From: a virus
Reading direction: 5' to 3' (one strand)
Virus record (IMG/VR): IMGVR_UViG_3300033991_000282
Span: 1-21,214 of that record
Length of the DNA stretch: 21,214 bases
Below are positions 560-16,283 of the stretch, one piece after another; within the stretch, counting starts at the first letter, position 1, and every line of letters starts with the position of its first letter. Both the position numbers and the translations under genes were made by a program. Under the pieces are notes generated by a model, which did not search any database, had not been told where the DNA came from, and was given only the letters and a program-made list of their open reading frames with translations.

Positions 560-1939
560 TTAGCTTGCCGCAGTAATCAGACCGCAAATCGGGCCTGCGT
601 TGGTCGTGTCGCCGACGCCGTGTATGTTGATTGCCACGCGGTCTCTTCCGCGAACGGCGATTTGTCCTTTGTTGAAGTAAACATCGCTCGACTGTGCGAA
701 CTCAATCCCGCCGCGAGTACCGAGGATTGCTCCCTGCCGCAGATTCGCTAGCAATGCGCAAATCTGGCTGTTGCCCTCGGCTTTCGGCATGACCTGTGTG
801 AAATTCACGGGATAACCGAGATACGTCCTCGTTCTCAGTGACGTGCCGGCGAGGACTTCTGTGGCTGTGCCAGCGTTCGCAGTAAGGGCGAGTGTGACCA
901 TCACGGTGAAAAAGAAATATCGGTGGACATACCAGCCAGCATCGCCGTCGTCTGCGTATTGCGGCAGGATGCCTGCGACGGATTCGAAGTTGGCGAGGGT
1001 CAGTTCGCTGTAGGCGTTGCCTGCGCCGACAACGAGAGACTTGATACTGGCGATTGTGGCGGATACTGCACGAAGAGCAGCGACGATTCCCTTGAATCCA
1101 AAGTACGTGCCTGTCCCGTCGCCCAGAAATCCGCAGAGGTCTTCGTAATAGGCGAACGAGCGAGCGAATAGGCCCGCAAGCAATTCGCCCAGGGCGACCA
1201 TCGAATCCTCTTCGAGCTCCGAGGAAAAAACGGTCAGGCCGTATAGCGTCTTGGGAACTAGGTTAATCACGGAGATTGACGGGTCGGTAGAGGTTATAGT
1301 GCCGCCTTCGCCAGGGCAGTAAATCGTAAGGAGGCCGTCGATTTTGGGCACGGTCGTGGTCCCGCCGCCCATCGGCATAACCTGGGCATCCCGGCGGAAC
1401 AAACCGTACTGTTCCAGAAGCATAATGATGGACGGAATCTGCTCGGCCATCACCAGCGCACCGCCGCCCGTCTGCGCAGAGCCGGTCATTGCCTTGAAAC
1501 CCTGTTCGGTTACGAAGTAAGGCTCGATGCCGAGCGAGTCGAGATGTTTTTTCGCCCAGTCATATTTTGCCTCGACCTTCGTTCCGGCAGTGCAGGCAAC
1601 CAGCACAAGGCAGGCGAACGCCTTCGCCTCGGCGGGCGAAGAGAAGTGTCCCTTGTACTTTCCGCCCTCGAAGAGAGAGGAGGTCCTGAAGCTGCGGAAA
1701 TTCAGGACTTGCTTTTGCAGCTCTTTGCAGCTTTTGGCCACATCGGCGAGGCCGGTATTGATTTCGGCGATGCTCGTCTGGTGGGCGTTAAGCATCTCGA
1801 CATCTTTTTGCTTTTCATTTTTGATGAGGTCGAGGACCTCTTTTTTCGTGGCCTTATTTTCCTTGATGTCCTTAAGGCCCTTTTCAATCGCATCAGCAGT
1901 TTGTTTGAGCTGCTGTTCCATCTGTTCTGGTGTAAGCAT
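560..1939 (-). CDS. Major capsid protein, HK97 fold
   Basis: A 459-residue major capsid protein that forms the icosahedral head. Residues 1-80 are charged and helical (a coiled-coil scaffolding-like delta region), as in HK97 gp5-type proteins that the prohead protease trims during maturation. From about residue 155 the sequence follows the Phage_capsid family: GGGALVMAEQIPSIIMLLEQ at 158-177, a VMPMGGGTTTVPK strand region at 187-199, a glycine and acid rich loop near 209-220, and YYEDLCGFLGDGTGTYFGFKG at about 264-284, the typical a-x-ED-x-lnGdGtG signature. The start ATG has AAGGAA about eight bases upstream. The protease gene ends five bases upstream of it. Family assignment is firm. Removal of the N-terminal region is inferred from the family. 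Confidence 0.93.
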   Translation of the reverse strand: MLTPEQMEQQLKQTADAIEKGLKDIKENKATKKEVLDLIKNEKQKDVEMLNAHQTSIAEINTGLADVAKSCKELQKQVLNFRSFRTSSLFEGGKYKGHFSSPAEAKAFACLVLVACTAGTKVEAKYDWAKKHLDSLGIEPYFVTEQGFKAMTGSAQTGGGALVMAEQIPSIIMLLEQYGLFRRDAQVMPMGGGTTTVPKIDGLLTIYCPGEGGTITSTDPSISVINLVPKTLYGLTVFSSELEEDSMVALGELLAGLFARSFAYYEDLCGFLGDGTGTYFGFKGIVAALRAVSATIASIKSLVVGAGNAYSELTLANFESVAGILPQYADDGDAGWYVHRYFFFTVMVTLALTANAGTATEVLAGTSLRTRTYLGYPVNFTQVMPKAEGNSQICALLANLRQGAILGTRGGIEFAQSSDVYFNKGQIAVRGRDRVAINIHGVGDTTNAGPICGLITAAS

Positions 1940-2794: not shown

Positions 2795-5212
2795 TTAAGC
2801 CGCCGCGTCGGCGGTCAAATTCTCATAGGAATAAAATTTTAGATTCGCGTAAAATTCCAAACCAAATTCCTTACCTGCTGCACGCCTGGCGATTTCTGCG
2901 CAGCGGCAATTTATAATGTTGGCCGGCGAGCCTGACGGGTCGCCCGGGTACATAAGATTTTCGCCGCCGACCGTGAAGGGTATATCGAGTGGTATGCCGT
3001 CGGCGTATTTATCACCGGCGTCGGCGTGGGATTTTCTGACGTGCTCATCGCCTGCCGTAAGCCATCCTTTCAAATCAACGCCGGCCGCCTTCATCCCGGA
3101 ATGCCTGCCGGTGCCGACGGCGCCCGATGTCTGCGTGCGGGCGATTGTCTGAGCACGGGCGCGATTTGAGCCGAGAACGTCCTTTATTCGACCGGCCAAT
3201 TTGTCCAATCCTTCGCCGGCTTCAAGGCCCTGCTTTAACTGGCGGGCGACGAGCTTCTGAGTAATTTTATTTACGCCGGAGATTTTTTGCGTAGAGACAA
3301 GGAGCTTGCCCTTGAACCACGGTATGTTTTTGACCTGCTGGACTTTCTCGGCAAGGTCTTTGCCTTTAAGGCCGAGAATTTCAGACAGGGCTTGTCTTAT
3401 TCCAAGCTCGCCCGATTTCATAAAGAATGACTGATTGATTGAACGGAGTTTTCCGTCCTGGATTTTAAGGTCCAGGACAACACGGGCGAGGACCTCATCA
3501 GGGGTCGCCTTTAAAACGGCCTTACCTTCCTCGTAAATCATTTCAAGTTTTCGAATGAGGACCCGCTGCTGGCGAACAAAGAAAATCCTCATTGCGATTG
3601 TATATTCACGCTCAATACCTGCCCAGCTTATGACCCAGTTGTTCCATATACGAAGCTTGTGGGGGTCGGCAGCTTTATCGGTGGCATTATCAACAACTCT
3701 ATCGACCGGTCTATCGATAGCTTTGCCGGGTTCTTCCGTTTCTTCCGGCTCTTCGGGGGGCTGCTCGCCGGGATAGGGCGGGCCGGTGATTCCCTCAAGA
3801 CCCGCTTCGAGAATATAATCTGCCGGGACCTGGCCCATACCGACCCACCAGTGCTCGCCCCACGGGACCTGTTCATAGGGCAGGTCATGGGATTCGATGA
3901 GGTTGTTGAGCTTGACGCCGGATTCGGTGAATTTGAGGACCTGAACGGCCATCTCTCGCATCGCCTCTTGGACAACGGGGTGCTGCGACGAATCGAGCCA
4001 TGCAAAGACCTGGCTCGTCGATGAAATGGCCTTGTGTCTTGAATCGCGATAAAAACGATTTCGGTTTAGCGAAGACGTTCCGGTGAAGAACCTGGCGTCA
4101 CTGACGGGGACGGCGGGGAAGTTGTCGCCTAAGGATTTTGACGCAGTAAAGCGGCTGATAATTCCGTGAGTAATTGCCTCGGCGAACGTGGATGCAAGAG
4201 GGATAATCGTATTAAAAATAAATTGCCTGTTGGCAGGGCCGTGGGCGTACTGCGCCTCTGTTATCAGGCCTGCGACACCCGGCGGGACGCCGAACGCGGA
4301 GCAGATTTTTTTATCGCTATATTCAGTTATTTGCGCAACTTCGAGGTCCGCAAGCGTCTGGGCGACGGTCTTGACGTCTGCGCCTCCCGTAATCAGCGCC
4401 GTTTTTTTGGCGTTGCAGGCGCCACGATGACGGTTGTCAAACTGCTCGTGGAAGAGACGGATTTCCTCGTCGCCGGGATTGCCGGGCATCGTAAGTATGA
4501 TTCCGGGTTCTGCGCCGTTGGCCAGCGCCGAGGCGTTATACAAAGACGCCGCGAATCCGTAGTTTATTTCATTGGCGGCGGCTGCCAGCGTGCTTATGCC
4601 GTGAAATTTATCGTAAGGATTAAAGCCCTTCCACTGATAGACCTCCGACGCGGCGAACCTCTCACGCTCGCCGAACCTTCCTCGAAACTCCCAGCCGACC
4701 AGGTCGCTTGATGGCTGACCGTTTGACGTGAGCGGGTGCATCTGGCTGCCGCTTATTACGACGATTTCACTGACTTGCGAAAGAGCACCGCCCGGCGTCG
4801 GGTTTCCGTTAGAATCGAAGAACGCCCAGAACACGTCCCGCGTCAGGGAAAAATGGCCAATTGTCTGCAAAACAAAATTATGCCAGCTCGTCGGCGAGTT
4901 AAACAGCAGGTCGTAAACGGGGCCGGATTCGATGATTTTTTCATCGACAGTGGAAAGGACCAGCGGCAGGGACTGAACGCCTTTGATTAGTTCGTTGACG
5001 CAGGTAAAAATCAGTGCTACCTGCCGATATGCCTCCGAGGGCCGGCTTCGCTGGGAATCGTCCGAAACATCGCCGCCTGAAAGCCAGAGCTTCGCAAACT
5101 GGGAAAGACCGACTGATTTTTTTGACGTTTCAATCTGGCGGTCAACGGCGAACCTTAACATCTCGGCTGCCTCGGAACTTAATCTTGTTTCGGGGGTTAA
5201 GCTATTTATCAT
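2795..5212 (-). CDS. Portal protein fused to a MuF-type minor head protein
   Basis: An 805-residue two-domain protein. Residues 65-430 match the HK97-type portal: ALIFTCVNELIKGVQSLP at 67-83, FHGISTLAAAANEIN at 203-217, ICSAFGVPPGVAG at 303-315, and an Asn-Arg-Gln-Phe segment near 328. A Pro/Glu-rich linker follows (480-515, PGEQPPEEPEETEEPG). Residues 655-775 are MuF-like: ARTQTSGAVGTGRHSGMKAA at 691-710, then WLTAGDEHVRKSHADAGD and a terminal NIINCRCAE motif at 765-773. In Mu the portal (gp29) and MuF (gp30) are separate proteins, so here one chain would supply both the portal ring and the internal head protein. The start is the ATG at 5212, which overlaps the terminase stop as ATGA. A TTG seven codons upstream is less likely. 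The product may be cleaved or work as a fusion; the sequence does not say. Confidence 0.9.
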   Translation of the reverse strand: MINSLTPETRLSSEAAEMLRFAVDRQIETSKKSVGLSQFAKLWLSGGDVSDDSQRSRPSEAYRQVALIFTCVNELIKGVQSLPLVLSTVDEKIIESGPVYDLLFNSPTSWHNFVLQTIGHFSLTRDVFWAFFDSNGNPTPGGALSQVSEIVVISGSQMHPLTSNGQPSSDLVGWEFRGRFGERERFAASEVYQWKGFNPYDKFHGISTLAAAANEINYGFAASLYNASALANGAEPGIILTMPGNPGDEEIRLFHEQFDNRHRGACNAKKTALITGGADVKTVAQTLADLEVAQITEYSDKKICSAFGVPPGVAGLITEAQYAHGPANRQFIFNTIIPLASTFAEAITHGIISRFTASKSLGDNFPAVPVSDARFFTGTSSLNRNRFYRDSRHKAISSTSQVFAWLDSSQHPVVQEAMREMAVQVLKFTESGVKLNNLIESHDLPYEQVPWGEHWWVGMGQVPADYILEAGLEGITGPPYPGEQPPEEPEETEEPGKAIDRPVDRVVDNATDKAADPHKLRIWNNWVISWAGIEREYTIAMRIFFVRQQRVLIRKLEMIYEEGKAVLKATPDEVLARVVLDLKIQDGKLRSINQSFFMKSGELGIRQALSEILGLKGKDLAEKVQQVKNIPWFKGKLLVSTQKISGVNKITQKLVARQLKQGLEAGEGLDKLAGRIKDVLGSNRARAQTIARTQTSGAVGTGRHSGMKAAGVDLKGWLTAGDEHVRKSHADAGDKYADGIPLDIPFTVGGENLMYPGDPSGSPANIINCRCAEIARRAAGKEFGLEFYANLKFYSYENLTADAAA

Positions 5213-6561
5213 GCGGCTACAATGACCCTGCAAAATCCACTTGTTCTTGCGGCCTCTTTTGCGAGCATCGAGGCCCAGAAATCATCCGCGTGACCTTCGT
5301 CGGTCGAGGCGGCGTCATAGCGGACATTTCCTGAAACTGTTACAGTTTTTCTGACGGTATGAAAACTTTCTCTGATTAGCCGGTCGGCGGGTACGCGGCA
5401 GCGGCGGTCCTCGAACATCCCCCTGCCAAGCGAAGCCAGATGGTCCTTGACCTCCGATGTGAATTTTACTTTCTCCACGCGATACGAGCCGTGGAACCTC
5501 TGCGCCTCTTCGACCAGCATATCTCCTATGCCGGTCGCATCGATGCAGGCACGGCGAATATTCTGATTGGTCAGTAAATCGTTTAAGATCTGAAGCTGCG
5601 CGTGATAGGGAGTCTTGTGCAGATAGATTACCTTACGCGCAATCATCAGGTCGGCGACCTTCTCGTCGAGCCAGAAGACGGTTCGGTGCTGCTCCCTGCC
5701 GATATCGCCGCCGAGATAATACTCACGCCGCTCTTTTGTGTGGGGGACAAGCTCCTGCAGGCAGGTGGGGTCCTCGCAGGATTGGTATAAATCGTAGGGG
5801 ATAAGCGCCAACAGGGCGGTCGAAGGAACGCACATATACTCCTGGTTCCAGGCGTCCTCATTACGGCAGCGTGCTCGACATTCTTTGAGAAACTTCCCAC
5901 GTGCTTCAAGGTCTATATGGTCAAGCTTATAGACTTTCTCGGCGAGGCCCTGAGCGACGGCGTCCTCGATAGTTGTTCGATGCAAAGACCAGTGAAGAGA
6001 ATGGGCCTCATCAAAGGTCATCTCTCCGCGACGGACCTTGTTGGCAAGCTCGACGATGCGATTGAATTCCGACTCCTCGCCGTTATGTGTGGACAGGATT
6101 CGTATATCATAGCCCCACGTCGTCGTCGGTAAGGCGGCGTCGAGCATCGGGCCGGGGTCGTCATGCCAGCCGAATTCGTCGAGCACTACGTCGCCGCCCT
6201 TGCTGCGGAAGCGGCGGGGATTACTGGTCATACAGTTAATCCGACTGCCGTTAGGAAATTCGACGACGTAATTATTGTATTTGTAGCCCTTAACATCCTC
6301 TCGTTGCTCAAGCGTCTCTTTTACGACAAGCTCCATAATCTCGCACCACTGTTTGCAGTAAAGGGCGTATTCAAAGGCTGCGGATTCGTCGGCGGATGAG
6401 AACCATAAATCACGGCGAACGTCGGTAAGGTTTCGGTCGCGGCAGGTCTTATAGCTGTCGGCGTAGGTCATTCCGATACGCCGGCTCTTCTCTGAGAGCA
6501 TCGCGTTGCTCTCATCGAGAATCCATTTCTGCTGATACGGCAGGAAGTAACCTTCCGGCAA
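5209..6561 (-). CDS. Phage terminase large subunit (Mu gp28-like)
   Basis: A 450-residue packaging motor with an ATPase and a nuclease domain. A Walker A variant is seen at 26-32 (SRRIGMT) and Walker B at 124-129 (DVVLDE). The RNase-H-like nuclease region shows acidic residues in GGDIGREQHRT (Asp286), ACIDATGIGD (Asp341) and GHADDFWA (Asp427 or Asp428), the expected three positions. The length and the SRR-x-G-x-T motif resemble Mu-like terminases. The start is TTG at 6561: AAGGA lies seven bases upstream, and no in-frame ATG exists near it. The preceding gene stops 14 bases before. The stop codon overlaps the portal ATG, so the two genes should be translationally coupled. Mu-like phages package by headful from integrated copies, so flanking host DNA may be packaged (family knowledge). 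Confidence 0.92.
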   Translation of the reverse strand: MPEGYFLPYQQKWILDESNAMLSEKSRRIGMTYADSYKTCRDRNLTDVRRDLWFSSADESAAFEYALYCKQWCEIMELVVKETLEQREDVKGYKYNNYVVEFPNGSRINCMTSNPRRFRSKGGDVVLDEFGWHDDPGPMLDAALPTTTWGYDIRILSTHNGEESEFNRIVELANKVRRGEMTFDEAHSLHWSLHRTTIEDAVAQGLAEKVYKLDHIDLEARGKFLKECRARCRNEDAWNQEYMCVPSTALLALIPYDLYQSCEDPTCLQELVPHTKERREYYLGGDIGREQHRTVFWLDEKVADLMIARKVIYLHKTPYHAQLQILNDLLTNQNIRRACIDATGIGDMLVEEAQRFHGSYRVEKVKFTSEVKDHLASLGRGMFEDRRCRVPADRLIRESFHTVRKTVTVSGNVRYDAASTDEGHADDFWASMLAKEAARTSGFCRVIVAA

Positions 6562-9731: not shown

Positions 9732-10175
9732 TTAAGCACGTTTTGTTTTCTTTTTTTTCTTTTGCGGTTCAATCACAAGCTCACGAAACGCATTTAAGAC
9801 CTTTTGCTCCTCAACGTCAAGAACCTTGTATATGGTCCCAGGCTGCTGCCGCTCAATTTCCACCATCTCCTTGATTCGTTCGATAGCACCGTGAAGCTGC
9901 TCGCGGGTAGATTGCCCAAAAGATTCTTTTTTTATTTCTTTGGCTGTTTCGTCGAAAGTATTATCAAATTCAGTTTCAATAAGCAATCGAGCCTGTACTT
10001 CTGGAGGTAACTTTATCCATAACTTAACAGCCGCTGAAAGGGCTCCATATTTCTGCTGATGGCGGGATTCGCACTGAAACCGAAATGCCTCTACTAATTT
10101 GGAAGGCAATTCGCCTCCAAGATGAAGCGTTTGATTTTTCTGATTTTTATCAAAATTTTTTTCAACCATAAGCAT
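9732..10175 (-). CDS. Candidate ribbon-helix-helix DNA-binding regulator heading the leftward operon
   Basis: A 147-residue protein with an N-terminal RHH-like unit: strand QTLHLGG (15-21), helix ELPSKLVEAFRFQCESRH (22-39), turn, helix ALSAAVKLWIKL (45-56). The rest is charged and helical and ends in a Lys-rich tail (KKKKKTKRA). Proteins of this fold bind operators as dimers through the strand. It is the first gene of the leftward operon and is divergent from another small RHH-like gene. I chose the ATG at 10175; ATG 10169 and TTG 10187 are alternatives. None has a clear ribosome site, so the message may be leaderless or weakly translated. It may repress or activate from the repeats in the control region. 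The fold call is by eye and should be treated as moderate. Confidence 0.7.
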   Translation of the reverse strand: MLMVEKNFDKNQKNQTLHLGGELPSKLVEAFRFQCESRHQQKYGALSAAVKLWIKLPPEVQARLLIETEFDNTFDETAKEIKKESFGQSTREQLHGAIERIKEMVEIERQQPGTIYKVLDVEEQKVLNAFRELVIEPQKKKKKTKRA

Positions 10176-10191
10176 AGTATTTAACAATACT
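10176..10191. promoter_or_regulatory. Perfect inverted repeat at the start of the leftward regulator gene
   Basis: AGTATT and AATACT flank a TAAC spacer, giving a 16-base palindrome that touches the proposed ATG at 10175. Such a site is well placed to be an operator for autoregulation. It differs in sequence from the TTTTCTGT repeats farther right, so it might serve a different protein. Confidence 0.5.
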
Positions 10192-10210
10192 TACAATCAG
10201 TCCAATACAT

Positions 10211-10282
10211 TTTTCTGTTTTTTTCTGTATTTTTCTATTGACAAAAGACGACAGAATATTACAGATGGCTGTATATTTCTGT
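10211..10282. promoter_or_regulatory. Operator-like array: phased TTTTCTGT repeats and inverted copies around a promoter
   Basis: TTTTCTGT begins at 10211 and 10221, and a degenerate TTTTCTAT at 10231, exactly ten bases apart, so all three lie on the same DNA face. Reverse-oriented ACAGAAT (10251) and forward TTTCTGT (10276) form an outer imperfect inverted pair around an inner TACAG-ATGG-CTGTA palindrome (10260-10273). This arrangement is typical of cooperative binding by small dimeric repressors, RHH ones included. The array overlaps likely promoter elements, which suggests repression. Confidence 0.6.
10238..10277 (+). promoter_or_regulatory. Probable rightward promoter region within the operator array
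   Basis: A perfect TTGACA is at 10238-10243, but no good -10 box is at ideal spacing (TACAGA at 10260 is the nearest, at 16). A second pairing, ACGACA (10248-10253) with TATATT (10272-10277) at 18 bases, gives a start close to the ATG at 10291 and a nearly leaderless message. Either would be covered by repressor at the array. Confidence 0.4.
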
Positions 10283-10290
10283 AGAACCGT

Positions 10291-10500
10291 ATGAAAGAAG
10301 CTAAAACGTTATATCTAACTGCCAATGCCGACCCGGACCTCTTTGGTTTAATAAACCAATATGCCGCAATACTCGGCGTTTTGCCTACGACAGCCACAAA
10401 AAGGTTCCTAAGACGTTCGCTTCCAGCAGCAATAAGGGCTGAAAAAGAAAGCCCATTGAATCATATCTCGACTTGTGACGCTCAGCCGGTGGTCGGCTGA
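10291..10500 (+). CDS. Small RHH-like candidate regulator heading the rightward operon
   Basis: A 69-residue protein. Strand KTLYLTA (5-11), helix DPDLFGLINQYAAILG (14-29) and helix PTTATKRFLRRSLPAAIRAE (32-51) give the RHH pattern found in Arc/CopG-like repressors. The last residues (STCDAQPVVG) are encoded by the left arm of a stem-loop and by the shared repeat, so the true C-terminus may be incidental. There is no clear ribosome site. With the divergent regulator across the phased repeats it may form a repressor/anti-repressor pair like Mu c and Ner, though the fold differs. The gene call is supported by position and pattern only. Confidence 0.55.
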   Translation: MKEAKTLYLTANADPDLFGLINQYAAILGVLPTTATKRFLRRSLPAAIRAEKESPLNHISTCDAQPVVG

Positions 10501-10511
10501 GCGATTTTATT
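10479..10511 (+). terminator. Stem-loop with weak T tract after the first rightward gene
   Basis: CGCTCAGCCG (10479-10488) pairs perfectly with CGGCTGAGCG (10494-10503) over a GTGGT loop and is followed by ATTTTATT. The stop codon of the small RHH-like gene lies inside the right arm. It is terminator-like, though the T run is short. Confidence 0.5.
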
Positions 10512-10538
10512 AACCCCGGCGGGCAGGATGCCTGCCGG
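10481..10538. repeat. Copy B of the two-copy intergenic repeat with a following hairpin
   Basis: Bases 10481-10515 match 9096-9130 at 30 of 35 positions. A 10-pair stem with one G-T pair follows (CCGGCGGGCA at 10516-10525 with TGCCTGCCGG at 10529-10538, loop GGA). Copy A is also followed by a GGCA/TGCC stem. Confidence 0.7.
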
Positions 10539-10688
10539 AGAAGATGACCTCGCTCCGGCGAGTTATTAAGGGGAAGCGTCCTCCATGAACGCAAACGATT
10601 ATAGCGGAATCCGAAGGACACGCAAGCAAATTCCCCTTATTTTCGTAGTTTTTTTTGGCTTATTTTTGCTTTTCATCACCCTCCTCCG

Positions 10689-10733
10689 AAATCCCCCCTT
10701 CTTGCTTTCGCAAGAAAGCAGGGGGGATTTTGA
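10689..10733 (+). terminator. Strong stem-loop with T tail in the early leader
   Basis: AAATCCCCCC (10689-10698) pairs with GGGGGGATTT (10721-10730), and an inner stem TGCTTTC/GAAAGCA closes on a GCAA tetraloop (10710-10713), with TTCT bulged on the left. TTTT (10728-10731) follows on the plus strand. It should act as a terminator for early transcription unless there is antitermination. Confidence 0.5.
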
Positions 10734-10741
10734 CTTCCCAG

Positions 10742-10760
10742 CCGCCCACGGGCGGTTTTT
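10742..10760 (+). terminator. Second terminator-like stem with T5 tail
   Basis: CCGCC (10742-10746) pairs with GGCGG (10751-10755) over CACG and is followed by TTTTT. It lies 12 bases after the preceding strong stem, so the two act in tandem. Confidence 0.5.
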
Positions 10761-10946
10761 GACCTCCTTTAACGAGGGCCGTTTGTCATGGGACGGCCCC
10801 TCGAATGTTAATCAGCGCCAAACGCTGCTGTCCTTTTACAGATGCGGTCGGCGGAGCGAACCGCCGCTATCCCCCACCGCCGACCGCACCCTCCTTAAAA
10901 TTCAGAACGCAGAGGCCAGATGGCCGGGCTGCTTGGGAAAGGAATA

Positions 10947-11081
10947 ATGACAGACCCAAATATAATTCAGGCGCTGGAACGCATCGGGGATAAAATGAAT
11001 TATCTGGGAGTCTTTCTGTTTAGCATAACATTTGCACTTATATCAATAACGTTTGCGCTTCTATCAAAAAGGAACACTTAG
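10947..11081 (+). CDS. 44-residue single-span membrane peptide
   Basis: The reading frame MTDPNIIQALERIGDKMNYL is followed by a hydrophobic helix (about residues 19-39, ending in ALLS) and KRNT. AAAGGA stands four bases before the ATG, and the next gene's AGGAG overlaps its stop, so it looks like a genuine small gene at the head of the early operon. No family is recognised. Tiny membrane peptides at this place in phage operons can be inhibitors of host envelope functions or exclusion factors, but nothing in the sequence tells which. Confidence 0.6.
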   Translation: MTDPNIIQALERIGDKMNYLGVFLFSITFALISITFALLSKRNT

Positions 11082-11089
11082 GAGAATAA

Positions 11090-11536
11090 ATGGTAGCGTA
11101 CGCAAGAGACGACGGATGGACGGAAACGATGCAGGGGCAGGGACATGTAGAGGCAAGGCCGGTGGTTGTATGCACAGGCTGCAGCCGGGTCCTGCCGCAA
11201 TATAATCACAAAATCGTGGAGCTTCCCGGCGACACGTGGGCGCTCTTTACGTGGTGCGAAAGGTGTAACACGGGAGCGGAGGTGGTTTATTTTAAGCGCG
11301 ACGGCAAAGAGACGGTACACAAGGGCAGGCAGTGGGTAATCGAAGGCGGCAGGCATGTCCCGAAAAAATGGGTCATTATCAACGAGATGACGGCGCCGGT
11401 AGTTACGGGGACGGGCGGCGATTACAAACAGGATTACACGCCGGAAATCAGCAACGCTCTTGTGAACATAAAGAGCGTATTGGAATCACTGGCGAAGACG
11501 GTGGGGCTTTTATATAACGCAATCGTGGGGAAATGA
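11090..11536 (+). CDS. Zinc-ribbon protein coupled to the transposase gene
   Basis: A 148-residue protein with a four-Cys zinc-ribbon pattern: CTGC (Cys28, Cys31) and CERC (Cys56, Cys59). The middle is charged and contains EVVYFKRDGK; the C-terminal 30 residues form an amphipathic helix (ISNALVNIKSVLESLAKTVG). I recognise no family. AGGAG lies before the ATG. Its stop overlaps the transposase start as ATGA, implying coupled translation and possibly a function in transposition or its control. It could bind nucleic acid or another protein. Confidence 0.75.
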   Translation: MVAYARDDGWTETMQGQGHVEARPVVVCTGCSRVLPQYNHKIVELPGDTWALFTWCERCNTGAEVVYFKRDGKETVHKGRQWVIEGGRHVPKKWVIINEMTAPVVTGTGGDYKQDYTPEISNALVNIKSVLESLAKTVGLLYNAIVGK

Positions 11537-13509
11537 ACGGAAACCTGACCATAACGCAGGCCGCCCCAAAGATGGGAATGAGCGAACGGCACCTTCGCCG
11601 CCTTTGCATCGAAGGCAAAATCCCCGGCGTCATCAAAGAAGGTGATGACTGGAGTCTCCCGGCGACGGCGGATGCCCGGCTGGCGGAGAAAACAGAAAGT
11701 GTTCCATACGGCATAGACGAGATTGCCGGTGTGTCGGCGAAAAAAAGAGAGGCCGCCCTTAGGCGGCTTGCCGTCGTAAAAAGATTCGAGCAGTTCGCAT
11801 CGGCCTGCATCCGCGAGGGAGGGACACGCAAGCAGGCATTGGCTGTCTTTTCACAAAAAGAAGATGTCCCCCAGCGGACCTTGGAGCGATGGATTGAACG
11901 GCTTCGGAAGGAAGGAATAATCGGCCTGGTGGATGGGCGAGGGGGGTTGGCATTAGACGACGCCATCAGCCCGGAGGTGTTCGAGCTATTTAAATCTTTG
12001 TATCTCGACGAGCGAAAGCCCAGCGTAAAAACCTGCTGGCAGAATATCCGCTATATAAACAGCCGCGAGAACAGGGGATGGCGGATTCCAAAGCTCGGAG
12101 CGATGTACTCCATAATCAAACGGACAATCCCTCTGCCGGTACAGGTCCTGCACAGGGACGGACTTGAGGCATACGAGGCCAGATGCGCACCCTATATCGA
12201 AATCAACCCGGACAGCATCGAGCCGGGAGCCGTATGGGTTGGCGACCATTCACAGTTTAACTGCTGGGTACAGCACCGCAACCGCTGGATTCGGCCCTGG
12301 GTTACAGCCTGGCAGGACATGCGGAGCCGAACAATCGTCGGATGGGACATAAACTCAGGTCCGAACCAGAGCACGATTTTGCTGGCCATGAAGCGCGGCG
12401 TTGAAAGTTACGGCCCGCCGGATTCCGTGAAAATCGACAACGGCAGGGACTATGATTCGGAGATGTGGACGGGGACGACAAAGGCAAGAAGAAAGGCGCT
12501 GCGTAAGGGCTATATCGACGAGAGAATGGTTGCCGGGATTTATGCGATGATGGGGGTCGCGGTATCTTTTGCGATTCCGTATCACCCGCAGGCCAAACGT
12601 ATCGAGCGATTTTTTGACACCTTGGACCAGCAGTTTACAAAGACGCTCAAGACATATTGCGGCAGGGACACTGAGAGCAGGCCGGATGCCCTGGCGGATT
12701 ATTTAAAAAGCGACAAGGCCCTCCGGGAATCGCACACGCTTGAGAGCTTCGCTGAGGCGGCGGGCAGATACATCGAGATATACAATAATTCGGTTCATAT
12801 CGGGGCGGGGATGGAGGGACAAACGCCCCTGCAGGTTCTTAACAGCCGGGCAAGCCGGCGGGTAATGGTCGAAGGCGTAGCCGACCTTTTGCTTCGCACG
12901 TGGAGCGGCGAGCTTACGGTCGGCAAGAACGGCGTGCGCTTCCACGATATGTATTACGGCCAGTTCAATAATGAACTTCTGATTTGCCAGGGCAAAAAGG
13001 TCCGCGTCTCTTATGACCCCGACGATATCCGAAGTGTGCACGTTTACGACGCTGCGACGATGAAGCTAATAACAATCGCCGAGCAGAACCACTTAGTCAA
13101 TTACGGCTCGGCAGTCGGCGAAGAGGACCTGCGGCTTGCGATGCGTGAAAAAGCGAAGGCAGTAAAGATGGTCAAATCGTACTGCGACTCGCAGCTTACA
13201 GCCAATATGGACCTTACGAGTTTGACGCTGCGGGCGCTCGAGGAAGGGACGCAGGCGCCGGGGACGGAATCCGCCGAGGCAATTAGGCCGGTAAAGACGG
13301 CAATGGATTCGCAGGTCCGCGAGCACGCCAGGCAGCATGCGGTCAAGGCCGTCCGCAAGGCAGCCGGCGCCGAGGGGACGAGGACGGTGCTGGATATTGA
13401 CTTCGATGCTTTGAAACGACAGCCGGAAAAAATCATAGATTTGAATTTTGAATTACCAGGCAATGCAAAAATAGATTTTATGGATTTGATTTTCGACGAT
13501 GAGAGCTAA
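11533..13509 (+). CDS. A: Mu-type DDE transposase (MuA-like)
   Basis: A 658-residue transposase that would join phage ends to target DNA for integration and replication. Residues 5-45 (ITQAAPKMGMSERHLRRLCI) form an excisionase/MerR-like helix-turn-helix, where Mu A has its enhancer-binding domain. Residues 75-140 hold a second HTH region, consistent with an end-binding Ibeta/gamma-type domain. The rve-like core shows Asp238 (VGDHSQFNCW), Asp302 (VKIDNGRDYD) and Glu358 (HPQAKRIERFF), the DDE triad. From about 445 a Mu C-terminal beta-barrel-like region follows (RFHDMYYGQFNNELLICQGKKV), then a helical tail (about 530-658) probably binding the B ATPase. Its end overlaps the next gene by 11 bases. 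The length is close to Mu A's (663). The family call is firm. Confidence 0.95.
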   Translation: MNGNLTITQAAPKMGMSERHLRRLCIEGKIPGVIKEGDDWSLPATADARLAEKTESVPYGIDEIAGVSAKKREAALRRLAVVKRFEQFASACIREGGTRKQALAVFSQKEDVPQRTLERWIERLRKEGIIGLVDGRGGLALDDAISPEVFELFKSLYLDERKPSVKTCWQNIRYINSRENRGWRIPKLGAMYSIIKRTIPLPVQVLHRDGLEAYEARCAPYIEINPDSIEPGAVWVGDHSQFNCWVQHRNRWIRPWVTAWQDMRSRTIVGWDINSGPNQSTILLAMKRGVESYGPPDSVKIDNGRDYDSEMWTGTTKARRKALRKGYIDERMVAGIYAMMGVAVSFAIPYHPQAKRIERFFDTLDQQFTKTLKTYCGRDTESRPDALADYLKSDKALRESHTLESFAEAAGRYIEIYNNSVHIGAGMEGQTPLQVLNSRASRRVMVEGVADLLLRTWSGELTVGKNGVRFHDMYYGQFNNELLICQGKKVRVSYDPDDIRSVHVYDAATMKLITIAEQNHLVNYGSAVGEEDLRLAMREKAKAVKMVKSYCDSQLTANMDLTSLTLRALEEGTQAPGTESAEAIRPVKTAMDSQVREHARQHAVKAVRKAAGAEGTRTVLDIDFDALKRQPEKIIDLNFELPGNAKIDFMDLIFDDES

Positions 13510-14671
13510 AGACCTCGAAAGGGCCATAGACGATATCGTCTGCAGGGCCCTTGAGCAGGACGCTCAATTCAGAGAGGTAAGGATGCCTGAAATAATAGAT
13601 GAAAAAACAACGCGATGCTTCGCACAACAGGTCCGCAACTTTTTATTAGTTAATAATCTTCCTCAGTCGTTCCTTGTAAAAAAAATCAAGGCAAGCTCGA
13701 CGGCAATCAGCGAGTTTCTGGATTGTAAATACAAAGGCAACGTGGCCCTCTTAATGCGCAAACTGGCGAGTTTCATGGACACTTTCAATCGCCGCAAGCG
13801 CCGGGTAAAAGGGCCTGCATATATCGAAACTTCTGTCGCCAAGGTAATCTTCGCCGTCATAAAGCATACCGAGTCTTTTTCCGACGAAAGAGGCGGAAGA
13901 ATCGGAATGATAATAGGCGACTCCGGTCACGGCAAGAGCGCATGCCTTCAGGAATACGCCCATGGAAATCCCAACAGTGTATATGTCGAAATCGACGACA
14001 CAATGACCTCTACGGCAATTTTTTCTAAGATAGCTAAGACGCTTAAGCAGGCAAGGGACATTAATGTTGATTACACTGGCGTATTGAGGAAAATTACAGA
14101 GCATTTAGTTGATGCGCTCGAACAAAAAGAGATGACTGTTATAATCGACGAGGCCTCGGCGCTCGACGTGCATAAACTCAATCAGCTCCGCCAAATCATA
14201 TCCGTGCGATGCAAGTGCCCTCTGATAATTGCCGGTAACTCGCACTTATTAAAAACAATCAACGACGACGCAGGCAAGCGCGGCTACGAGTCGCTGGACC
14301 AGTTTCGGTCGAGACTTCTTTCTATCGTCAATCTCGACGCCCTCGCCTCGACCGGAAGGGGCAACTCATTACATACAATCGAGGACATCCGAAAGCTTTA
14401 TGAATATGGCGGCATCAGCCTCACGTCTGATGCAGTGAAAACGCTGCGAAGAATCTGCTGTACTCCACAGACAGGAAGATTGTGGACGTGTAAGACTATT
14501 ATTGAGGCGCTACATTTGACGAGAGAGCTTAGGAATGGAGGCGAAATTAACACTGATTATATCGTCTCTATAGTCAAAAAACTTAACTTATCCATCTCGG
14601 AACGGCTGCCGCTGAGGTGCGATGAGCCGGAAGAATCCGAAGCAGAAAAACAGGTGGCAATGGCTGGATAA
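13499..14671 (+). CDS. B: MuB-like AAA+ target-capture ATPase
   Basis: A 390-residue AAA+ ATPase, partner of the transposase; MuB-type proteins polymerise on DNA and deliver target DNA while giving target immunity. Walker A is GDSGHGKS at 140-147 and Walker B VIIDEAS at 214-220, with a sensor-type IIAGNSHL at 243-250. The first 100 residues have an HTH-like QSFLVKKIKASSTAISEFL, as in MuB's N-terminal DNA-binding domain. The C-terminal part (about 330-390) is helical like the MuB C-domain. It overlaps the transposase gene. MuB is usually about 312 residues, so this is long, by an extended N-terminus and a C-terminal tail rich in Glu. Confidence 0.92.
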   Translation: MRAKDLERAIDDIVCRALEQDAQFREVRMPEIIDEKTTRCFAQQVRNFLLVNNLPQSFLVKKIKASSTAISEFLDCKYKGNVALLMRKLASFMDTFNRRKRRVKGPAYIETSVAKVIFAVIKHTESFSDERGGRIGMIIGDSGHGKSACLQEYAHGNPNSVYVEIDDTMTSTAIFSKIAKTLKQARDINVDYTGVLRKITEHLVDALEQKEMTVIIDEASALDVHKLNQLRQIISVRCKCPLIIAGNSHLLKTINDDAGKRGYESLDQFRSRLLSIVNLDALASTGRGNSLHTIEDIRKLYEYGGISLTSDAVKTLRRICCTPQTGRLWTCKTIIEALHLTRELRNGGEINTDYIVSIVKKLNLSISERLPLRCDEPEESEAEKQVAMAG

Positions 14672-14892: not shown

Positions 14893-15285
14893 ATGAACAA
14901 AAAGAAATCACAAAACACAGATATACCAGCTTGGAAGCTTTTTTCTTCTGGATTCAAAATTCGCTGGAAAGGTTATGGGGCAACAATCCGATATTTACGT
15001 GACTTTGCTTTCATGGACCAGGCCGATTTTGGGCGACTTATAGGGGGCTATACTCGTGGGAAAATATCCCGTTATGAAGCCGAAAAATCTGAACCGCCTA
15101 TTGATTTTTGGGTGAAAGTGATGAAAACTTTCGGATTGAATATTAACTGGGCAATGACGGGCGATGGGATTCCGTATATTTCGGCTTATGCCGATTGTCC
15201 TGAGCGCAAGAGGTTTTTGAAATGGTACAAATTAAAGCGAGATATGGATGATTTTGCAAAGGCGATGGTTGACGTTGCTCAATAA
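14893..15285 (+). CDS. XRE/Cro-type transcription regulator
   Basis: A 130-residue protein with a typical HTH_XRE unit at about 29-83 (YLRDFAFMDQADFGRLIG, then KISRYEAEKSEPP), followed by the INWAMTGDG segment common in phage CI-like and Cro-like regulators. It would bind operators as a dimer. The gene lies within the transposition operon between the small basic protein and the GemA gene, so it may give feedback on early transcription rather than act as the master repressor. The ribosome site is weak (AGGAAGAG about 13 bases upstream). Its end overlaps the GemA gene frame by 38 bases. Confidence 0.85.
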   Translation: MNKKKSQNTDIPAWKLFSSGFKIRWKGYGATIRYLRDFAFMDQADFGRLIGGYTRGKISRYEAEKSEPPIDFWVKVMKTFGLNINWAMTGDGIPYISAYADCPERKRFLKWYKLKRDMDDFAKAMVDVAQ

Positions 15286-15793
15286 AGACCAAATAAAACT
15301 CGTTCAAACGGCTGTCCGGGCGGCGGGCCTGCGTGATAAGCAGTTCGACGGCAGATACCGCATGCTGCTGGGCCAGTACCTGCAGCCAAACGGCAGGCCC
15401 GTTACGAGCTGCACGCAGCTCACTAACGGCCAGTTGGACGACCTTCTGGCAATCTGCGAATGTCACGGCTGGCGGATGCCGGGCAAGGCGTGGAACCACT
15501 TTCAGCGGAAAATCCAGGAGAGCGAGACGGTCGCATCATTCGCACAGCAGGAGGCAATCAAGCACCTGGCGGGCGACATGGGCTGGAACGATGCTCAATT
15601 GGCCGGGATGCTCAAACGAATGACGGGCGGATTCGGGTCGAACGTCTCGGCGCTAAGTCCCGGCCAGGCGTATAAAATCATCGAGGCATTAAAGGCCATG
15701 CTGGGCCGTCAGCGAGGCACTTGTTACGAAAACATTCAGCAGGTCAAGGAAGAAATGGAGTGCGCTAAGGATGGCAAAGAGAATCAAATCTAA
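15248..15793 (+). CDS. gemA: GemA-like early protein (DUF1018)
   Basis: A 181-residue protein of the Mu gp16/GemA family. In Mu GemA affects host gene expression and DNA topology after induction. The N-terminal family unit is visible: LLNKDQIKLVQTAVRAAGL (10-28), then YRMLLGQYL, and LTNGQLDDLLAICECHGWRMPGK (about 58-80). The rest is helical, with a second unit at 90-160. ATG 15248 gives the longest frame but overlaps the XRE gene; TTG 15269 with AAAGG upstream is an alternative that would remove seven residues. It overlaps the following Gam gene by 23 bases. Confidence 0.85.
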   Translation: MILQRRWLTLLNKDQIKLVQTAVRAAGLRDKQFDGRYRMLLGQYLQPNGRPVTSCTQLTNGQLDDLLAICECHGWRMPGKAWNHFQRKIQESETVASFAQQEAIKHLAGDMGWNDAQLAGMLKRMTGGFGSNVSALSPGQAYKIIEALKAMLGRQRGTCYENIQQVKEEMECAKDGKENQI

Positions 15794-16283
15794 ACAGCCG
15801 AACCTCATACCCATCAAAGACTGGCAGGAAGCGGACCGGCTGGTTCGCATTATCGGCGAATCGCGGGCGTCTATCGAAAAAAGCGAGGCGGAGGCCAAAA
15901 ACAAAATCGACGTTATAAAAGCGAGGCTGGCCGGGGACGTGGAGGGTACACAGAAGCTCATCGAAACTACCTGCCGCAGCATCGAAGCGTTTGCCCTTGC
16001 GCATAAGGACGACTTCGGCGCCGCAAAGAGCAGGGAGCTTAACTTCGGCATTATCGGCTGGCGAAAAAGCACATTTATAACGAACGGCAAAAAGACGCTG
16101 GAGCTTGTCAAAAATATTTACGGCAAGGCCTGCGCATATATCCGCGTCAAGGAGTCGCTTGACAAAGAGGCGTTGGCCAGGCTCACGGACGAAAAGCTTG
16201 CCGAAATCGGCGCTCGACGGGAGATTACGGACGATTTCTTCGTCGAGCCTTCCATTGTCAAGGCTGCGGAATACAGAGATTGA
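15771..16283 (+). CDS. gam: Mu Gam-like DNA-end protection protein
   Basis: A 170-residue protein of the Phage_Mu_Gam family. Gam binds the ends of double-stranded DNA as a Ku-like dimer and protects from host exonucleases. The N-terminal long helix (IGESRASIEKSEAEAKNKID, 28-47) and the RELNFGIIGWRKS segment (about 87-99) are characteristic. The C-terminal part (125-165) is helical and acidic, with LTDEKLAEIGARREI. The length is typical of the family. The start overlaps the GemA stop region, with GGAG about ten bases upstream. In Mu, Gam and GemA are also near neighbours in the early region, which supports both calls. Confidence 0.93.
   Translation: MAKRIKSKQPNLIPIKDWQEADRLVRIIGESRASIEKSEAEAKNKIDVIKARLAGDVEGTQKLIETTCRSIEAFALAHKDDFGAAKSRELNFGIIGWRKSTFITNGKKTLELVKNIYGKACAYIRVKESLDKEALARLTDEKLAEIGARREITDDFFVEPSIVKAAEYRD

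Follow-up and report, generated by a model that had tools for sequence, protein, structure and literature searches.

A divergent pair of RHH-like genes and a phased repeat array as a candidate lysis-lysogeny switch in a Mu-like phage

What do two small divergent genes, separated by a short stretch of repeats and placed at the head of a transposase operon, do for the phage that carries them? This question is raised by a virus record of 21.2 kb (21,214 nt), the whole length of which is called the window here. The window is a Mu-like transposable phage, as judged by the presence of MuA, MuB, and Gam, and the gene pair lies at its exact point of divergence: MuA, MuB, and Gam are read rightward, while the terminase and head genes are read leftward. 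The genes referred to throughout are the following.

560-1939, minus strand: major head protein
5209-6561, minus strand: terminase
9732-10175, minus strand: left gene, 147 aa (ATG at 10175, second ATG at 10169), proposed lysogenic repressor (c or Mnt analog)
10291-10500, plus strand: right gene, 69 aa, RHH-like, first gene in the early (MuA/MuB) direction, proposed Ner or Arc analog
11533-13509, plus strand: MuA-like transposase (PF02914, 5e-13; phrog_310, 8e-93)
13499-14671, plus strand: MuB-like ATPase (phrog_296, DNA transposition protein, 2e-34)
14893-15285, early strand, downstream of MuB: stand-alone helix-turn-helix (HTH) regulator (phrog_8, 4.5e-9; phrog_4, 6e-8)
15771-16283, plus strand: Gam homolog

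A sequence-only reading of this DNA had described two adjacent divergent genes, and the open reading frames bear this out, as the two lie on opposite strands 115 bp apart. The same reading held that both proteins open with a strand-helix-helix pattern, which stands for the right protein and, moderately, for the left. The AlphaFold2 model of the right protein (monomer, pLDDT 75) has an extended segment at residues 1-14 followed by helices at 15-28 and 32-53, which is the strand-helix-helix chain of the RHH (MetJ/Arc) fold. CdbA, CopG, AtaR, TacA, VapB, Arc, and MazE-type antitoxins are prominent at the top of its structure matches, each of which is insignificant when taken alone (Foldseek E about 2, VIA Z at most 5). 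We consider it very probable that the right protein is an RHH protein. The left protein combines an N-terminal strand-helix-helix segment (about residues 17-56) with a helical, Lys-rich C-terminal part in a low-confidence prediction; its model, in which a candidate strand precedes helices at 25-37 and 43-55, is poor (pLDDT 60), and a fold search using this model returned an empty, uninformative result.

The expected resemblance to Arc/CopG family profiles was found only in part. Against P22 Mnt, the left profile scored 16.8, higher than any of 100 shuffles or 26 real control windows, and it scored 22.4 against independent right-hand relatives with textbook RHH signatures (control maximum, 11.9). 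By contrast, neither the left profile against Arc nor the right profile against Arc or Mnt rose above the controls, and no direct Arc homology is therefore claimed for the right protein. Among the relatives described below, Pfam RHH_4 has a weak match (E=0.005) in the left protein of locus L049, and only single relatives matched Arc-like phrog_582, with E about 0.1-0.2. The left protein is thus likely to be RHH, at a somewhat lower confidence than its neighbor, and both window proteins are probably of this fold.

Alternatively, these small helical proteins could be something other than RHH, either unrelated two-helix DNA-binding proteins or proteins that do not bind DNA, with the array being used by a host factor. 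Pfam and PHROG searches matched neither window protein to any family, RHH or HTH; the HTH domains of the Mu c and Ner families were recognized in neither; and profile searches against PDB sequences gave chance matches only. The lack of a sequence family, the low-confidence models, and the Foldseek E-values would suit such a reading. It is common, however, for RHH proteins to be too short or too divergent for curated sequence families. The prominence of RHH chains among the structures that best match the right model, the score of the left profile against relatives that occupy the same position and carry textbook RHH signatures, and the RHH_4 match in L049 argue against it, and we regard it as unlikely.

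The 115 bp between the two genes contain direct repeats, two dyads, and two predicted promoters.

10176-10191: AGTATT-TAAC-AATACT palindrome (AGTATT 10176-10181, AATACT 10186-10191), over the proposed -10 of P-left, putative function
10178-10205, minus strand: P-left, candidate repressor promoter proposed by eye, TTGGAC (complement of 10200-10205), 16-nt spacer, TAAATA (complement of 10178-10183)
10210-10239, plus strand: direct repeats TTTTTCTGTT / TTTTTCTGTA / TTTTTCTATT spaced exactly 10 bp apart, a putative operator array for the left protein
10238-10265, plus strand: P-right, candidate early promoter, TTGACA 10238-10243, 16-nt spacer, TACAGA 10260-10265, aligned to the box of the relatives
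10251-10282: imperfect dyad ACAGAATATTACAG-ATGG-CTGTATATTTCTGT, 14-nt arms, 79% complementary, which shares the TTTCTGT motif and covers the proposed -10 of P-right

Three repeat copies at exact ten-base spacing had been proposed. Two copies of TTTTTCTGT (10210-10218 and 10220-10228) and the 10-bp phasing were confirmed, but the third copy, at 10230 (TTTTTCTAT), is degenerate and carries one mismatch. By Tandem Repeats Finder (TRF), 10209-10236 is an array of 2.8 copies with a period of 10. The lag-10 repeat score of the gap is 21, a value reached by none of 300 dinucleotide shuffles, and sites resembling TTTTCTGT with at most one mismatch occur five times in 121 bp (mean 2.65; five reached by 0/200 dinucleotide shuffles). 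Of the two outlying copies that had been called inverted, the one at 10251-10259 (ACAGAATAT) is indeed inverted relative to the array, but the other, placed at 10276, corresponds to a site at 10274-10282 (TATTTCTGT) that has the array's own orientation. These two sites are inverted relative to each other and flank the inner TACAG (10260-10264) / CTGTA (10269-10273) palindrome, which is present as described, as is the AGTATT/AATACT palindrome beside the left start. It should be noted that dyad symmetry is the weaker signal, the best palindrome score in the gap (p=0.02) being centered at 10244.5, off the 10251-10282 dyad.

Lag-10 phased repeats with other motifs were found in three relatives (L012, L013, and L024), and L011 has a lag of 9, while a significant lag-10 array was absent from 11 of the 15 loci tested. 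With an earlier statistic, based on the commonest short motif, the window and L011 reached significance and L003 and L007 were marginal; we found the phasing statistic to be more informative.

The proposed -10 of P-right is weak, and a generic promoter scan gave no match at this position. The -35 belongs to a TTGAC-N4-GCCGA box that, by inspection, is exact at the rightward promoter of seven loci and has one mismatch in five more, including the window (GACGA; box at 10238-10251); in most loci this -35 sits 52-57 bp ahead of the right start. A role for the box as a host promoter motif was rejected, as it showed no enrichment in the Planctomycetota metagenome-assembled genome (MAG) G014 (6 occurrences against 3 in the control). 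The conserved box is independent of either regulator and might be a site for MuA or another conserved factor. P-left was modeled on the TTGCNN/TTGTAA-N16-TAAAAT/TATTTT pattern seen in relatives.

All relatives were obtained through MuA-based scans. Scans of viral contigs with the left or right protein alone, together with tblastn in annotated phages, yielded no relatives, and alignment A2 was too diverse to serve as a scan query. Besides the window, 18 loci have, ahead of MuA, a strand-helix-helix gene read leftward and a small gene read rightward; four others (L015, L016, L018, and L043) were excluded from the comparison of switches, MuA adjoining the head genes there. One relative (L031) was found inside a Planctomycetota MAG, one (L033) inside a Phycisphaerae MAG, and others in further Planctomycetota genomes. 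This appears to be a Mu-like phage family with Planctomycetota hosts; no host lysogen of exactly the window phage is known. In L086, which comes from a Planctomycetota genome, the left gene is of the L017/L020 type. The right-position gene of the same locus (6054-6488, 144 aa) resembles, by eye, two tandem RHH units.

The two positions of the pair are not always filled by the same fold. In L004, an HTH gene takes the left slot and an RHH-like gene the right one, and in L034 both slots are filled by an HTH/HTH-like pair, which fits what is expected of an exchangeable regulatory slot. The HTH gene in the left, or repressor, slot of L004 is a 56% identical homolog of the window's own HTH protein at 14893-15285, itself similar to phage repressors. 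This protein could therefore be the true immunity repressor, with the RHH pair being accessory, as immI is to immC in P22, where the double-RHH region is secondary (PMC11016777). Against this, the gene occurs only in the window and L004 among 19 records and is absent from the other 17, where the HTH_3 matches are mostly to MuB-type frames of about 380 aa and the candidate in common is the RHH-like pair. Moreover, in the window it lies on the early strand downstream of MuB, which is not where a lysogen would express its repressor. We think it improbable that this protein, instead of the RHH-like pair, holds immunity.

The evidence on what the central DNA belongs to came from comparing loci. L039 and L051 are identical over kilobases on both flanks and differ in one block of 466 and 479 bp, respectively (3273-3738 in L039, 3278-3756 in L051), that opens within the stretch coding for the C-terminal part of the left protein and closes at the -35 of P-right; farther downstream, the two also differ by a separate indel of 24 bp. 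Taken alone, this difference could still come from misassembly of one metagenomic contig. Ahead of the block, L021 and L024 share 97.6% identity; their left gene and center are unalignable, and the right genes that follow are 80% similar. The left gene and center of L024 are in turn shared with L013 and unlike those of L021. This three-locus pattern argues against misassembly as the explanation. The L039/L051 pair looks like a natural exchange of an immunity cassette between otherwise nearly identical phage genomes.

Mantel tests over 19 loci pointed in the same direction: the central DNA correlated with the left RHH protein (r=0.35, p=0.0005) and showed no correlation with the right protein (r=0.007, p=0.43). 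To the right of the promoter box, the DNA showed a weak association with the right protein (p=0.04) and none with the left one. It is important to note that recombination moves adjacent DNA jointly, so that block exchange alone is no proof of binding, and that linkage may inflate the correlation between center and left protein, while the right gene, which is also near, gives none. As the center follows the left protein and not the right one across the relatives, the array should not be assigned to both proteins. Taken together, the block exchange and the Mantel results indicate that the left gene and the array behave as a repressor/operator immunity module and that the right gene behaves as a Ner/Arc-like early gene. 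On the simplest reading of these alignments, the left gene and center would form a repressor-operator cassette of the kind by which heteroimmunity arises in other temperate phages.

The operators of phage Mu, which lie between c and ner, double as a transposition enhancer bound by the N-terminal domain of MuA. The phased array could likewise be mainly a MuA-binding enhancer, and both the N-terminal HTH_17-like segment of the window MuA and the wide conservation of the TTGAC-N4-GCCGA box at P-right would fit. Yet phages with similar MuA differ in their repeat sequences, which go with the left protein, and the L039/L051 block changes the center while the flanks stay identical; an enhancer as the main role of the array is thus quite unlikely, and an enhancer role can coexist with operator function. 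A partition (centromere/ParG-like) unit in place of a transcription switch is very improbable: iteron-binding RHH proteins are typical of ParG-type partition, of which one RHH/iteron case has been described in phage B83 (PMC6669507), but the ORF lists for the window and its relatives showed no ParA-type ATPase next to the left gene, a phage that integrates by transposition does not need plasmid partition, and the repeats overlap the predicted divergent promoters.

That the gene pair is a control switch, as first proposed from the letters, is supported by this comparative sequence evidence, namely the block exchange and the Mantel results. With the anatomy, the excess of phased repeats, the pair at 18 further loci, the block exchange, the correlation of center with left protein, and the RHH-like model of the right protein in hand, we favor, with moderate confidence, the reading that the region is the lysis-lysogeny control of a Mu-like Planctomycetota phage, exerted by two RHH regulators in Mnt/Arc geometry. 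From the anatomy and the published roles in P22 (PMC11016777), we infer how it might work; dimerization, DNA binding, cooperativity, the direction of regulation, the promoter positions, and the role of each protein are all predicted elements of this scheme. The left protein, an RHH DNA-binding head with a helical tail, would be the maintenance repressor. In a lysogen, it would sit cooperatively on the 10-bp-phased TTTTTCTGT array upstream of the early -35, and probably also on the dyad motif over the -10 of P-right, and this occupancy would keep the transposase operon off and tune its own divergent promoter. Upon induction, the 69-aa right protein would be the first early product and, like Ner or Arc, would damp the early promoter and shut off the repressor gene once lytic growth begins.

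Between the right gene and MuA lies about 1 kb in which there are small ORFs and a structured RNA, and the RNA element is the following.

10477-10544, plus strand: tandem RNA hairpins joined by an A/U-rich linker, with the right gene's stop codon inside the first

Covariation supports the hairpin pair, with 24 double-change cells where 7.8 were expected (0/500 shuffles). With its covariance model, most relatives, among them L007 and L010, which had no part in building the model, gave one match each, located where the right gene ends, and L004 gave two (5831-5904 and 6341-6410); further matches include L002 7085-7155, L003 6900-6970, L007 4412-4477, L011 3925-3994, and L031 4534-4606. No match was found in L042, L034, or L086, or in the stretches of Mu, BalMu-1, and P22 that were searched. 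Since the hairpin begins inside the right gene, many right proteins have QP..G C-termini in common. Rfam holds no family for this clade-specific element, and an assignment to rsmX was not accepted, as it remained below threshold (22.7 of 56 bits). The hairpin may act as a terminator, an attenuator, or a put-like antiterminator of early transcription. An all-RHH primary immunity switch with an exchangeable head-and-array cassette from which new immunity types arise, coupled to a hairpin that gates read-through into the transposase operon, is a more ambitious proposal and one that we consider unlikely.

The remainder of this interval contains two further elements. A four-cysteine (CxxC..CxxC) protein without a Pfam family, at 11090-11536 in the window, directly precedes MuA in nearly all relatives. 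At 10585-10947, and at the same place in L002, L003, and L004, a short possible membrane peptide (..LFITLLR..) is followed by GC-rich hairpins. In L002, L004, L011, and others, by eye, the peptide frame runs on into a transglycosylase-like domain, which the window lacks.

Mu control is taught through the HTH proteins c and Ner, and here the same job is apparently done by RHH proteins. As RHH is sometimes replaced by HTH in the same slot, the slot and its logic seem to be conserved while the DNA-binding fold is replaceable. The swapped L039/L051 pair offers a ready-made test of repressor-operator specificity. Little on lysogeny in Planctomycetota was found in the literature searched, and the system would provide an experimental handle on it.

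Three known systems can be set beside the window. In phage Mu, as in the window, a leftward gene (c) and a rightward gene (ner) are separated by repeats and followed by A and B, and the earlier placement of the pair where Mu keeps c and ner is thus correct in order and orientation before A. Unlike the RHH-like pair of the window, the Mu regulators c and Ner are HTH proteins, Ner being annotated as such in the Mu record, and in the window, unlike in Mu, about 1 kb lies between the right gene and MuA.

In phage 186, direct repeats spaced by 10-11 bp lie between pR and pL and are bound cooperatively by Apl (PMC7498355). One-turn-spaced direct repeats are thus a known switch design that the window shares; in contrast, Apl is of the excisionase type, not RHH, and the 186 promoters face each other while those predicted in the window diverge.

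The closest parallel in geometry is immI of P22, where the RHH repressor genes mnt (leftward) and arc (rightward) diverge, with both promoters and both operators in the short gap between the two. Of the two proteins, Mnt keeps arc and ant repressed, and Arc inhibits mnt while moderating ant; immI as a whole is secondary in P22, where it controls ant and modulates immC (PMC11016777). The window likewise has a larger leftward and a smaller rightward protein (in P22, Mnt of 83 aa with a tetramerizing tail, and Arc of 53 aa, which opens the rightward operon). Its Mnt/Arc-type geometry and repeats are present in the sequence, and the RHH fold of the left protein and the promoter positions are predicted. 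It differs from immI in that its proteins have no detectable sequence family, its putative operator is a 10-bp-phased array, and its pair fronts the transposase operon at the primary control position; no ant-like gene was recognized in the subset of its ORFs that was scanned, and MuA and MuB lie downstream instead. As P22 mnt/arc is already a divergent double-RHH switch, the suggestion that such a switch would be a new solution is not supported. In the literature searched, no transposable phage was found described with a pair of this kind as its apparent primary switch. The narrower claim survives, that one clade of transposable phages has an Mnt/Arc-type pair in place of c/ner, and there a double-RHH pair, as the apparent primary switch, puts a known design in a new setting.
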